Of a stretch of DNA of 41,517 bases, positions 26,599 through 30,762 are shown in pieces. This DNA comes from a virus: the IMG/VR virus record IMGVR_UViG_3300011116_000589, positions 1 through 41,517 of that record; one strand, 5' to 3'. The notes beneath the pieces were generated by a model. That model saw only the letters and a list, made by a program, of their open reading frames with translations, did not search any database and was not told the DNA's origin. Within the stretch, counting starts at the first letter, position 1; every line of letters starts with the position of its first letter. Made by a program: the position numbers and the translations under genes.

Positions 26599-26775
26599 GA
26601 CGGTCGGAGTCGTTTCTTGTGCGTTGTCAATAGGTTATTTCATCAAGCTTGGCCGTGTAACGTTTAGCCTGGCAATTGTTAATAGAATTGTTAGCGTCTG
26701 GAATGGCTCGCCGGGCTTGTGGTATGGTTTCGCCAAGCGCTCAATTGTTGGCGCGGGAACACGGGGAAATCCACA

Positions 26776-27396
26776 ATGGCCGGGGAAGCAAAGCGGCAAT
26801 CTAAAGAGGAAAAGGCCGAGGCTCGCAAAGCCCGAAATGAAGCGCAGGCAATAGAGGAGCGCACCATATGGGCGCAAATAGAGAAGGAGGCAAATCTAGC
26901 CGCTATCACTCAAAAGCCCCGGATATCCTATAGCGAAGATCTGGCGAATGAGATGATCATTCGAATGAGCGCAGGACAATCTTTGAACAGCATATGCAAG
27001 CTCGAACATATGCCACATATCAGCACGGTGTTTGATTGGATTGAAAAAGACCCCTCTTTTGCCGAGAAATACGGGCGCGCGCGCGAGCTTGCGGCTCATT
27101 CTCTATTTGATTCAATGATTTGCATAGCAGACGACGAGTCAAAGGATCTGCTAGCGGATGGGAGCGCCAATAACGCGGCTATCGCCAGAGCACGGTTGCG
27201 GATCGAAACCCGCGCCAGGGTGGCGGGGAAACTCGCGCCTAAGGTTTATGGCGAGCGGATAGAGCAGTTGGCGCAGACTGTAAACGTGACAAACAATAAC
27301 TTAACTATTGACGCCGCATCTCTTGGCGCAGATCAGCGAGCCGCATTGCGCGCCATGCTCACGCAAGCGAAGGAGGGCAAGGTCATCGATGGCTAA
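26776..27396 (+). CDS. terS: Terminase small subunit (Sf6 gp1-like)
   Basis: 206 aa from ATG 26776, with GGGGAAAT upstream; an earlier in-frame ATG at 26719 has no site. A basic coiled N-terminus (KEEKAEARKARNEAQAI) leads into the terminase core: YSEDLANEMIIRMSAGQSLNSICK, HISTVFDWIEKDPSFAEKYGRAREL in parts, the Sf6-type winged HTH and oligomerisation helices. The C-terminal part (NVTNNNLTIDAASLGADQRAALRAML) likely contacts the large subunit. It recognises the pac or cos site; candidate DNA repeats lie just downstream. The large subunit is 1.6 kb away, an unusual gap. Confidence 0.85.
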   Translation: MAGEAKRQSKEEKAEARKARNEAQAIEERTIWAQIEKEANLAAITQKPRISYSEDLANEMIIRMSAGQSLNSICKLEHMPHISTVFDWIEKDPSFAEKYGRARELAAHSLFDSMICIADDESKDLLADGSANNAAIARARLRIETRARVAGKLAPKVYGERIEQLAQTVNVTNNNLTIDAASLGADQRAALRAMLTQAKEGKVIDG

Positions 27397-27519
27397 GGTA
27401 CCCCGACAGGCACCCACCCCAAGCCGCTGTCCAGAAGAGGCCGGGGGGTCTTAGGTACCAAATTCCCTCCGCGTTAACCGCCACCATATACCCACCCCCA
27501 TCAATATGCCACTCCAGCA

Positions 27520-27535
27520 TGTTTCACGTGAAACA
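27520..27535. promoter_or_regulatory. parS: parS-like ParB binding site 1
   Basis: Exact TGTTTCACGTGAAACA, the consensus of chromosomal parS sites loaded by ParB clamps. A strong hairpin begins directly after it. Confidence 0.75.
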
Positions 27536-27563
27536 CAGGGGTGGGGGCACCCCCCCCGCCCTG
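27536..27563. repeat. G/C-rich inverted repeat
   Basis: CAGGGGTGGGGG (27536-27547) and CCCCCCGCCCTG (27552-27563) pair at 10 of 12 positions. It adjoins parS-like site 1 and could be a packaging or transcription-stop structure. Confidence 0.5.
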
Positions 27564-27672
27564 TAGGTACCCGCTCTCTATACAGTGCGGCATGGCGCGC
27601 TACCCCTGCATAGGGCATAGGTATACCCCCGGTACTGCCCCCCGGTGTTAGGTACCATCTATGTAGGTGAGA

Positions 27673-27688
27673 TGTTTCACGTGAAACA
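27673..27688. promoter_or_regulatory. parS: parS-like ParB binding site 2
   Basis: Exact TGTTTCACGTGAAACA, immediately extended on the right by CGTG, so that a second CACGTG (27686-27691) overlaps its end. Confidence 0.75.
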
Positions 27689-27957
27689 CGTGATCTTGGC
27701 TGTCCGCGCCAAGTGTTAGGCCCCGTTAGCTGTTGGCCTAACTTTGGTGGGGAGCCAGTGGCGGTCAAAGCCAGTGGCCCCCCGATGCCAAAGAGGGAGC
27801 TGCCAAGCGTCTCTTCAGCAAAACCAATATAACCCATTGGCGGGGGTGTTGGAAGTTAAATGATGGGCTGGGTGGGCTTCCAGCATCTTGATCGCCTGGT
27901 GCGCGCCCAGGGTCTCACCGGCCATCCCGGCCATCAATCTGGTTTTACCACATCCGA

Positions 27958-27973
27958 TGTTTCACGTGAAACA
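27958..27973. promoter_or_regulatory. parS: parS-like ParB binding site 3
   Basis: Exact TGTTTCACGTGAAACA; with its flanks an 18-bp perfect palindrome (A before, T after). It directly touches the stop codon of the Tat-signal gene (27974). Confidence 0.75.
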
Positions 27974-28420
27974 TCACACTCCTTTTAGAAACACATGTTG
28001 CGGCACGTATATATTTCTTTTGCGTTCCTTTTCCCAATCTTTCAGAGCGCTAAACTCAGCCACATTGGTAAATCCTGTAGTTTCATCAACAATAGCTTTG
28101 CGTTGGGCGGCAAACCAATCCCGTGTTAGATTGGGTCGTTCAGTCCAGTGGTTAGAATGGCCCGTAAGCGGAGGCATAGGTTTGGAGTAAACAACTTCCG
28201 TGATCTCGCGAAATTTGCCAATGCCGCTACTGTCAAACTTGGCAAACCGCAAAGCCTCATTGGGCGTCCAAACCGTATGCTCTACAACTTCCAAATCCCA
28301 GCCCACGCCCCACACTGTAGCATATGGCTTGACAATAGACCGAACTGGCATGAGCTTGTCAGCAGCAATAATCGCTGGGGCGGCAATTAACCCGCTAAGG
28401 ACAAATCTACGTGTCGGCAT
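27974..28420 (-). CDS. Tat-signal exported protein of unknown function
   Basis: 148 aa, GGGAGAAAGCA before the ATG. The N-terminus TRRFVLSGLIAAPAIIAA carries a twin-arginine signal (R-R-x-F-[VL]) with a hydrophobic stretch and Ala-rich cleavage area, so export in folded form is likely. Similar Tat-signal proteins ending their signal with LMPVRS are found in phages and prophages of Alphaproteobacteria. The mature part is mixed (YATVWGVGWDLEVVEHTVWTP) with a Lys/Arg-rich end. It is transcribed against the packaging genes and is flanked exactly by two parS-like sites, so it looks like an added cassette (moron-like). Confidence 0.65.
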   Translation of the reverse strand: MPTRRFVLSGLIAAPAIIAADKLMPVRSIVKPYATVWGVGWDLEVVEHTVWTPNEALRFAKFDSSGIGKFREITEVVYSKPMPPLTGHSNHWTERPNLTRDWFAAQRKAIVDETTGFTNVAEFSALKDWEKERKRNIYVPQHVFLKGV

Positions 28421-28436
28421 TGCTTTCTCCCTTTAG

Positions 28437-28452
28437 TGTTTCACGTGAAACA
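28437..28452. promoter_or_regulatory. parS: parS-like ParB binding site 4
   Basis: Exact TGTTTCACGTGAAACA, 16 bases before the start codon of the Tat-signal gene on the minus strand, so it lies in its promoter or leader. Confidence 0.75.
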
Positions 28453-28532
28453 TTAGCCGCTATGGAGCCATCCCCAATACCCGCTGACATGTTGGCACGG
28501 CTAGACCAACCGGGCGTTTCTTAGATAGCTAA

Positions 28533-28778
28533 CTATTCCCCGCAAAGATTGTAGTCAGCAATGGTTTTGCCATTGTAATTCATCACATATACTAGACCAA
28601 AGTCTAATGTGTGGGTTAACCGACCGCCATTAACTAAAGGCCCGGTGGTGTAATGGAGCACCCGCTTTAACGGTTTGTCTGTGCCCCACACATCTTCAGA
28701 GTTGTCTGTGTACCAAACGCCTTCTGCTTCAATAAGCTGTTCAGTGTTGTTTTTGTCGATGTGCTTGATAGTGAACAT
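28533..28778 (-). CDS. Small hypothetical protein
   Basis: 81 aa. Beta-rich with many aromatic residues: FTIKHIDKNNTEQLIEAEGVWYTDN in two parts, LHYTTGPLVNGGRLTHTLDFGLVYVMNYNG. A gene starting after CTAGGAGAGCAGC. No family recognised. It lies on the minus strand between the two terminase genes with the Tat-signal gene downstream. Confidence 0.55.
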   Translation of the reverse strand: MFTIKHIDKNNTEQLIEAEGVWYTDNSEDVWGTDKPLKRVLHYTTGPLVNGGRLTHTLDFGLVYVMNYNGKTIADYNLCGE

Positions 28779-28800
28779 GCTGCTCTCCTAGTGCTGCTAT

Positions 28801-28815
28801 GACGGAAGATCCGTC
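28801..28815. promoter_or_regulatory. Short perfect inverted repeat between divergent genes
   Basis: GACGGA-AGA-TCCGTC lies 23 bases upstream of the minus-strand gene (28778) and about 60 bases upstream of the plus-strand gene (28877). Operator for either is possible; the neighbouring AT-rich DNA (28816-28860) would hold promoters. Confidence 0.4.
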
Positions 28816-28876
28816 CAAATCACTATAGCAAAATAATCAACCATCAGCTATATTTTATTTGAACAGGGGGCTGCTC

Positions 28877-29041
28877 ATGCGCAAAAAAAATATCTCCAAA
28901 CGCCGTTGGAAAGCGCGTCTTCTCATAGGCAAATGGATCCCAGGCATGGTGGTCTATCATTACGGCTTTGACCGCATATATAGTGAATCACTGGTCCAGC
29001 ACCCTGAAATGGACTTCTACAGGATCGCGCCAATCCTATGA
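28877..29041 (+). CDS. Small basic protein preceding the large terminase
   Basis: 54 aa from ATG 28877, with GGGGG upstream; TTG 28859 is an unlikely alternative. Strongly basic N-terminus (RKKNISKRRWKARLL) then GKWIPGMVVYHYGFDRIYSES. ATGA overlap with the terminase gene. The basic part could contact DNA or RNA; function unknown. Confidence 0.55.
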   Translation: MRKKNISKRRWKARLLIGKWIPGMVVYHYGFDRIYSESLVQHPEMDFYRIAPIL

Positions 29042-30762
29042 CAACACTTAACTTTGACGGCCAGCAAATTGATATTGAACGCCAGCTTATGGAGCTGGAC
29101 CGTGCAGACTGTGAAGAGAGCCTTTACGAGTTTCTTAAGCACTCTTGGAAATACATTGACGCTTCGCCGTTTACAGAGGGTTGGCCCATTGAAGCTATAG
29201 CGGAGCATTTGCAAGCCGTAGTCGATGGCGAAATTCGCCGCCTTATCATCAACATCCCGCCCCGCATGGGTAAATCATCCGTCACCTCTTGCGCGTTCCC
29301 AGCTTGGACTTGGGCGCAATCACGCATTAGCCCAACCTCTGGCGCGGGTGTCCAATTCCTGCATGCATCATATGCTCAACAGTTGTCCCTGCGTGATTCG
29401 GTCAAATGCCGCCGCCTCATTGAAAGCCCATGGTATCGTGCGCTTTGGGGAGACAGATTTAAATTAACCTCTGACCAAAACACCAAGGGAAGATTTGACA
29501 ATGACAAGAACGGGTCACGGCTCTCCACATCGGTGGGATCAGCTCTTACGGGTGAAGGCGGCTCTATTATCGTTGTCGATGACCCGAATGCGGCCCAAGA
29601 AGCCTTCTCCGAGGCTACCATTGCATCAACCATCGAATGGTGGGACGGCGCGCTCTCAACCCGCCTCAATGACCCAAAGACCGGTGCGTTTGTGGTCATC
29701 CAGCAGAGGCTGTCTGAAGAAGATTTGACCGGCCACATCATGTCCAAAGACGAAGGCGAGTGGACCCACCTCTGCTTGCCCATGCGCTACGAATGGCAGA
29801 GGCATTCCGTCACCTCCATTGGGTGGAATGACCCTCGTGGCTGTGATGAAGACGGGGAGCCCCTTGTTGAGGTGGACGAAGAGGGCAACCGGATCCCAGT
29901 CAGCGTTGATGCTCAGATCGAGCTTGATGAGGTCCGCGAAGGCGAACTTCTCTGGCCAGAGCGTTTTGGCGAGACTGAAGTCACAATCCTTGAAAAGCAG
30001 CTTGGCCCTTGGTCCGCAGCCGGTCAGCTCCAGCAGCGCCCGGAGCCAAAAGGTGGCGGCATTATCAAGCGCGAGTGGTGGCAACCGTGGGAATCAGCCA
30101 ATTTCCCCAATATGGATCTCATCATAGCCACCCTAGACACCGCATATACGGCCAAGACCGAGAATGACCCGTCAGCCATGACCGTCTGGGGCGTCTTTAC
30201 CAGTGATGTTTCCGTCCAGGCGCCCAGCCACGCAGGCAACCGCCACGGCGAACGCATGACTTATTCTAGGCAGTATACTGAGACCGCGCCAAGGGTCATG
30301 CTCATGTATGCTTGGCAAGGCCGCTACGAGTTGCACGATCTGGTTTTGAAGGTCTCGGACACATGCCGCCGCATGAAAGTGGACACGCTCCTCATCGAGA
30401 ACAAAGCCGCAGGGCATTCTGTCGCCCAAGAAATCCGTCGAATGTACGGTTTTGAGAAGTTCGGGGTGCATATGTTCGACCCCAAGTCCCAAGACAAGCT
30501 GGCGCGGCTGTACTCGGTTCAGCACTTGTTCGCTGAAGGTCTAGTTTATGCCCCGCTCCGGCAGTGGGCAGAGATGGTCATCACTCAAGTAGGCCAGTTC
30601 CCCAAGGGGAAACACGACGATTTGGTTGATACAGTAAGCATGGCCATGAGACATTTGCGCGAAACAGGCGCTATCATGCGCGGGGACGAGTACCGGGCTG
30701 AGCTGAACGACAGCTTGGAGTTCAAGGGCAACAATCAATTTCAGCCGCTCTATCCAGTTTAG
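29038..30762 (+). CDS. terL: Terminase large subunit
   Basis: 574 aa. ATPase: Walker A IPPRMGKS at 73-80, Walker B IIVVDDP at 177-183. Nuclease domain: D367 (LDTAY), E454 (IENKAAG) and KHDDLVD at 525-531, the three acidic clusters of the RNase H-like packaging nuclease. It drives DNA into the capsid through the portal and cuts the concatemer. The length is a little above the usual 450-550 aa because of an acidic insertion near 265-305. ATGA-coupled to the gene before it. Confidence 0.95.
   Translation: MTTLNFDGQQIDIERQLMELDRADCEESLYEFLKHSWKYIDASPFTEGWPIEAIAEHLQAVVDGEIRRLIINIPPRMGKSSVTSCAFPAWTWAQSRISPTSGAGVQFLHASYAQQLSLRDSVKCRRLIESPWYRALWGDRFKLTSDQNTKGRFDNDKNGSRLSTSVGSALTGEGGSIIVVDDPNAAQEAFSEATIASTIEWWDGALSTRLNDPKTGAFVVIQQRLSEEDLTGHIMSKDEGEWTHLCLPMRYEWQRHSVTSIGWNDPRGCDEDGEPLVEVDEEGNRIPVSVDAQIELDEVREGELLWPERFGETEVTILEKQLGPWSAAGQLQQRPEPKGGGIIKREWWQPWESANFPNMDLIIATLDTAYTAKTENDPSAMTVWGVFTSDVSVQAPSHAGNRHGERMTYSRQYTETAPRVMLMYAWQGRYELHDLVLKVSDTCRRMKVDTLLIENKAAGHSVAQEIRRMYGFEKFGVHMFDPKSQDKLARLYSVQHLFAEGLVYAPLRQWAEMVITQVGQFPKGKHDDLVDTVSMAMRHLRETGAIMRGDEYRAELNDSLEFKGNNQFQPLYPV

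Follow-up and report, generated by a model that had tools for sequence, protein, structure and literature searches.

ParB-parS is the main bacterial system for chromosome segregation and SMC loading, and in chromosomal ParABS systems several copies of one 16-bp parS sequence lie within about 2 kb, in arrays near oriC. P1, N15, and the cluster A mycobacteriophages form plasmid-like prophages with partition proteins and a type of partition site of their own. For the SGI1 island, passages of one report (PMC10954446) describe mimic copies of the IncC plasmid parS that bind IncC ParB and stabilize the island.

Here, we describe a phage locus that shares features with each of these systems. The DNA analyzed (the window) is an entire IMG/VR record of 41,517 bases, which is probably a partial genome, since it has no end repeats. 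As in chromosomal ParABS systems, it carries the same 16-bp sequence in several copies within about 2 kb; however, there is no ParA or ParB in cis, and the array is located on a phage, between the terminase genes terS and terL. P1, N15, and the cluster A mycobacteriophages are likewise phage genomes with partition sites, but in the present case ParA, ParB, and a tyrosine integrase were not found. The closest analogue is SGI1, as far as the passages of PMC10954446 describe it, in that it is a mobile element with sites that mimic the parS of another replicon; in SGI1, however, ParB comes from the helper plasmid and the sites are of the plasmid type, whereas here the element is a phage, the sites are of the chromosomal type, and ParB binding is putative. 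A literature search, with preprints and most subscription papers outside its range, found no report of chromosomal parS sites carried by phages.

Four parS sites between the terminase genes

The features of the locus are as follows.

26719-27396, plus strand: terS, small terminase subunit of the Sf6 type (Pfam PF20901, Sf6_terminase, 8e-34; PHROG 1482), left border of the parS interval
27397-29037, unstranded: terS-terL interval, outside of which the record has no parS
27520-27535, unstranded: parS site 1, exact TGTTTCACGTGAAACA, with a G/C-rich inverted repeat and a C8 tract after it, within a doubtful minus-strand frame (27451-27837)
27673-27688, unstranded: parS site 2, exact, within the same minus-strand frame as site 1
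27958-27973, unstranded: parS site 3, exact, directly 3' of the minus-strand gene at 27974-28420
27974-28420, minus strand: cargo gene, 148 aa, no Pfam or PHROG match, homologues in the terS-terL interval of several relatives
28437-28452, unstranded: parS site 4, exact, on the 5' side of the preceding gene and 16 bases from its start codon
28533-28778, minus strand: cargo gene, 81 aa, PHROG 3909 (unknown function), family present in five loci, in the same interval of relatives
29038-30762, plus strand: terL, large terminase subunit (PHROG 38, 6e-85; Terminase_6C), right border of the parS interval

The first-pass annotation had reported four exact copies of a chromosomal parS sequence, unexpected by chance and placed between the terminase genes, and each of these points was borne out. 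TGTTTCACGTGAAACA is the parS consensus of Livny et al. (2007), as cited in a passage of PMC10197239; the four copies are the only words in the window that match it with up to three mismatches, and both terminase genes were recognized by profile. The copies span 933 bp, within the few kilobases over which the sites of a chromosomal centromere cluster. Base composition predicts 7e-6 exact copies, and shuffled versions of the window contained a mean of 0.11 matches at up to three mismatches, with none of 100 shuffles reaching four. A chance origin of the sites is ruled out by these values, together with the control palindromes considered below.

The minus-strand frame at 27451-27837 is probably noncoding, since it matched no family and none of the families listed for the relatives contained a recurrent homologue. 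The product of the gene at 27974-28420 and its homologues have an N terminus that, judged by eye, resembles a twin-arginine (RR-type) signal. Within the lineage of the window, the terS-terL interval is a cargo region of small genes, often on the minus strand. Among the proteins scanned were a helicase, a primase, a RecE-like exonuclease, an Erf-like annealing protein, a RusA-like resolvase, HNH endonucleases, tail proteins, and an SU10-like portal. Roseobacter phage CRP-902 and MW202675 are the closest relatives that have names; their terS and terL genes are directly adjacent, and the sequence read, all of CRP-902 and two thirds of MW202675, contained no parS. Cousins that lack the sites also have a terS-terL interval; therefore, the array does not simply come with the interval.

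The host is likely to be an alphaproteobacterium, to judge from sequence comparisons. Phages of Pelagibacter, Roseobacter, and Caulobacter are among the portal matches, and several of the nearest phages by portal infect alphaproteobacteria; of the 96 alphaproteobacterial genomes sampled, 71 had the exact 16-mer, usually in one to three copies. The window TerL had no close relative among the GTDB representative genomes, where two distant matches (43% and 26%) were obtained. We take the lineage to be of freshwater origin from its IMG sample numbers.

Conservation of the sites in related phages

A search of relatives for the same 16-mer, as the first-pass annotation had proposed, showed that the sites are present in close relatives and nearly invariant. 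Among 80 TerL relatives, most of those whose TerL was at least about 80% identical and whose upstream sequence was long enough had two to five exact copies 5' of terL, at positions that shifted between loci. Some of these loci are copies of the same phage; removal of sites with similar flanks left 84 distinct sites, in which the 16-bp core is nearly invariant and the flanks are unrelated, with near-zero information except for a purine before the core, a pyrimidine after it, and a T at +2. A similar but weaker flank preference was seen at alphaproteobacterial chromosomal sites. The core was still nearly invariant among site-bearing relatives with TerL divergence to about 80%. One variant with a single mismatch, TGTTTCACGGGAAACA, was seen four times in the family (L133, L141, and L170).

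In relatives in which both terS and terL were recognized, all sites lay between the two genes, with one exception located inside terS near its start, and in ten long records, 33 of 33 sites fell within the 21.5 kb of terS-terL interval and none in the 375 kb elsewhere. The 61,106-bp relative G018 carries three exact sites and is effectively complete, since its ends overlap by 146 nearly identical base pairs (one mismatch seen). Apart from one pair of 10-mers, no other repeated palindromes were found in site-free relatives.

Site presence follows the TerL tree, with 6 changes, compared to 19.7 for shuffled labels. In the clade that contains the window (36 rows), sites were present in 29 of 31 scoreable members; outside it, they were sporadic and single. 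Clade members L142 and L143 lack sites, as do many cousins (for example, the 56-kb G025); the array is therefore dispensable over longer times, which counts against the explanation favored below.

Five homologues of one small cargo gene contain a site that encodes the peptide VSRET with identical codons, while the neighboring codons vary. Because of this pattern, and because RNA folding is unremarkable at three of the four window sites and no terminator was found, selection most likely acts on the DNA sequence and not on the protein, as expected of a protein-binding site.

Search for partition and integration genes

The ParB_N profile (PF02195) had no match in any of 39 related records, G018 included, and the HTH_ParB (PF17762), ParA (AAA_31, PF13614; E up to 1), and tyrosine integrase (PF00589; tyrosine type only) profiles had none in nine records; controls were positive in every case. 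The window itself gave no match to the ParB_N, HTH_ParB, or ParA model in searches that were positive in control genomes, and in G018, which is among the site carriers without a match, none of the four was found. Neither in the probably partial window nor in the effectively complete G018 did these searches recognize the ParB and ParA that define a self-contained ParABS system, or the tyrosine integrase of a temperate integrating phage; what is found is the arrangement of a hijacked parABS system, with mimic parS sites and no recognizable parAB in the element. The statement in the first-pass annotation that no parA or parB was in view thus extends to the relatives, where it had called for a parB search, and its suggestion of a plasmid-like prophage receives little support, as neither an integrase nor ParA was found.

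A ParB encoded elsewhere in the phage is ruled out as far as profile searches of the 39 records reach; such searches would miss a ParB that has diverged, or a phage protein of another kind with affinity for the motif. No DNA-binding gene was recognized that is present in site-bearing records and missing from site-free ones, and candidates for co-occurring genes, judged by position, were for the most part structural genes or shadow frames on the antisense strand.

parS clusters in unrelated phages

A scan of IMG/VR for the exact 16-mer returned at least 120 loci, and over 20 parS loci had two or more sites when one-mismatch copies were counted; two composition-matched control palindromes occurred in 11 and 10 contigs, always singly. 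ParB_N was absent from 46 of 50 parS-bearing contigs tested, many of which are fragments; lone sites may be due to chance or host DNA. Site clusters without ParB, of two to six sites each, recur in isolates unrelated to the window lineage. The following complete isolates or genomes lack ParB_N: Ruegeria phages DSS3P8 and V10 (three sites each), Gordonia phages PatrickStar and Woes (Orchidvirus; two sites), Lactobacillus plantarum Harbinvirus Lpa804 (three sites), Bacillus phage vB_BcoS-136 (four sites in 1 kb), and Glutamicibacter phage Voltaire (two sites). Gut inoviruses of about 6 kb, L226 (PQ006097.1), L285 (PQ006135.1), and L286 (PQ006098.1), carry five to six exact sites around the genome and also lack ParB_N.

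It can be proposed, tentatively and at somewhat less than an even chance, that tailed and filamentous phages of several bacterial phyla have repeatedly adopted host-type parS arrays without ParB, by which phage DNA is disguised as the host origin region so that host ParB and SMC position, organize, or protect this DNA during infection.

Two other sets of matches were noted. One IMG/VR contig (L090), possibly host chromosome, has twelve parS-like sites within 5 kb, eleven of which are TGTTTCACGTGGAACA, and many short unannotated records of Listeria phages LM 4-11-1 and LM 4-14-1 match parS and are suspected to be host DNA deposited as phage.

Possible functions of the array

We consider it somewhat likely that the four palindromes are true parS sites of the chromosomal type, selected as a cis-acting loading array for the host chromosomal ParB that would make the phage DNA a mimic partition complex. 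Its two components can be judged separately: it is very likely that host ParB binds the sites and, given binding, likely that the benefit is in cis rather than through titration. In the infected cell, the phage sites would serve as loading points for ParB-CTP clamps of the host, which would then spread across the terS-terL region. The phage DNA would then mimic the host origin or centromere, and host ParA, polar anchors, or SMC could hold, position, or organize it; the benefit may be positioning, ParA-driven movement, SMC loading, or disguise. Recruitment of host ParB had been suggested in the first-pass annotation, and that part of its interpretation gains from the presence of the sites in close relatives, the failure to find ParB, and the lack of a phage DNA-binding gene that convincingly tracks the sites; of the purposes that it attached to recruitment, a plasmid prophage is little supported, and so, to judge from the unrelated phages, is a specific role in packaging. 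A lytic phage has no obvious need of segregation, which counts against the loading array. If parS is kept in phages under strong selection without its proteins, it would represent a new way for viruses to exploit the host nucleoid, and the part that ParB plays in infection could be tested directly with phage-host pairs already available (Ruegeria DSS3P8, L. plantarum Harbinvirus, Gordonia Orchidvirus, and Bacillus B103).

An unlikely alternative is that the sites act as a decoy: many phage copies, each with several parS sites, would titrate host ParB off the chromosome and disturb segregation or division to the advantage of the phage. Several exact sites per genome, multiplied by the phage copy number, are consistent with this idea, as are the small gut inoviruses, whose five to six sites are scattered around a 6-kb genome. 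However, chromosomal ParB is established to be normally in excess over its few sites, and titration needs no clustering, whereas this lineage has few sites and restricts them to a single interval. Tight clusters of two to five sites are more like a chromosomal centromere than a scattered sponge; since the sites are clustered and few, a centromere-like role in cis is favored.

It is quite unlikely that the array is a packaging element, at which ParB or SMC bound beside terS would mark or organize the start of packaging. The sites do lie nearly always in the terS-terL interval, and even where this measures 3.6 to 5 kb they can come immediately after terS; the ends of G018, with their near-identical overlap, are consistent with a circularly permuted genome packaged by the headful mechanism. 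Yet cousins with related terminases lack sites, terS identity falls to about 30% with the sites still exact, and no terminase is annotated near the clusters of the unrelated isolates, in stretches of up to about 3 kb on either side; because genomic locations vary in unrelated phages, a packaging-only role is argued against.

We regard as very unlikely the proposal that the palindrome is an operator for a regulator unrelated to ParB, encoded by the phage or by the host, that controls the small minus-strand cargo genes. Such genes accompany the sites, and site 4 is only 16 bases from a start codon, but the position of the sites relative to genes is not fixed, they sometimes lie inside genes, and promoters are not enriched at them. 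In addition, the genes found in site-bearing but not site-free records included no recognizable DNA-binding gene, and exact identity to parS would have to be a coincidence repeated in unrelated phages. A function as an RNA hairpin or terminator is highly improbable: the palindrome is perfect and one site folds somewhat better than shuffled sequences (z = -2.5), but the other three are weak (z = -0.9 to -1.7), none is terminator-like, an Rfam scan gave no match, and it is the sequence, not pairing alone, that is nearly invariant over 84 sites.

A second repeated word in this part of the window is GGTACC (often TAGGTACC), which occurs at 27397, 27454, 27566, and 27651, four copies within 260 bp downstream of terS, and has one further copy in the rest of the window. 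It is not clustered in the relatives G018 and G022, and local clusters of it are also present in G036 and G027.
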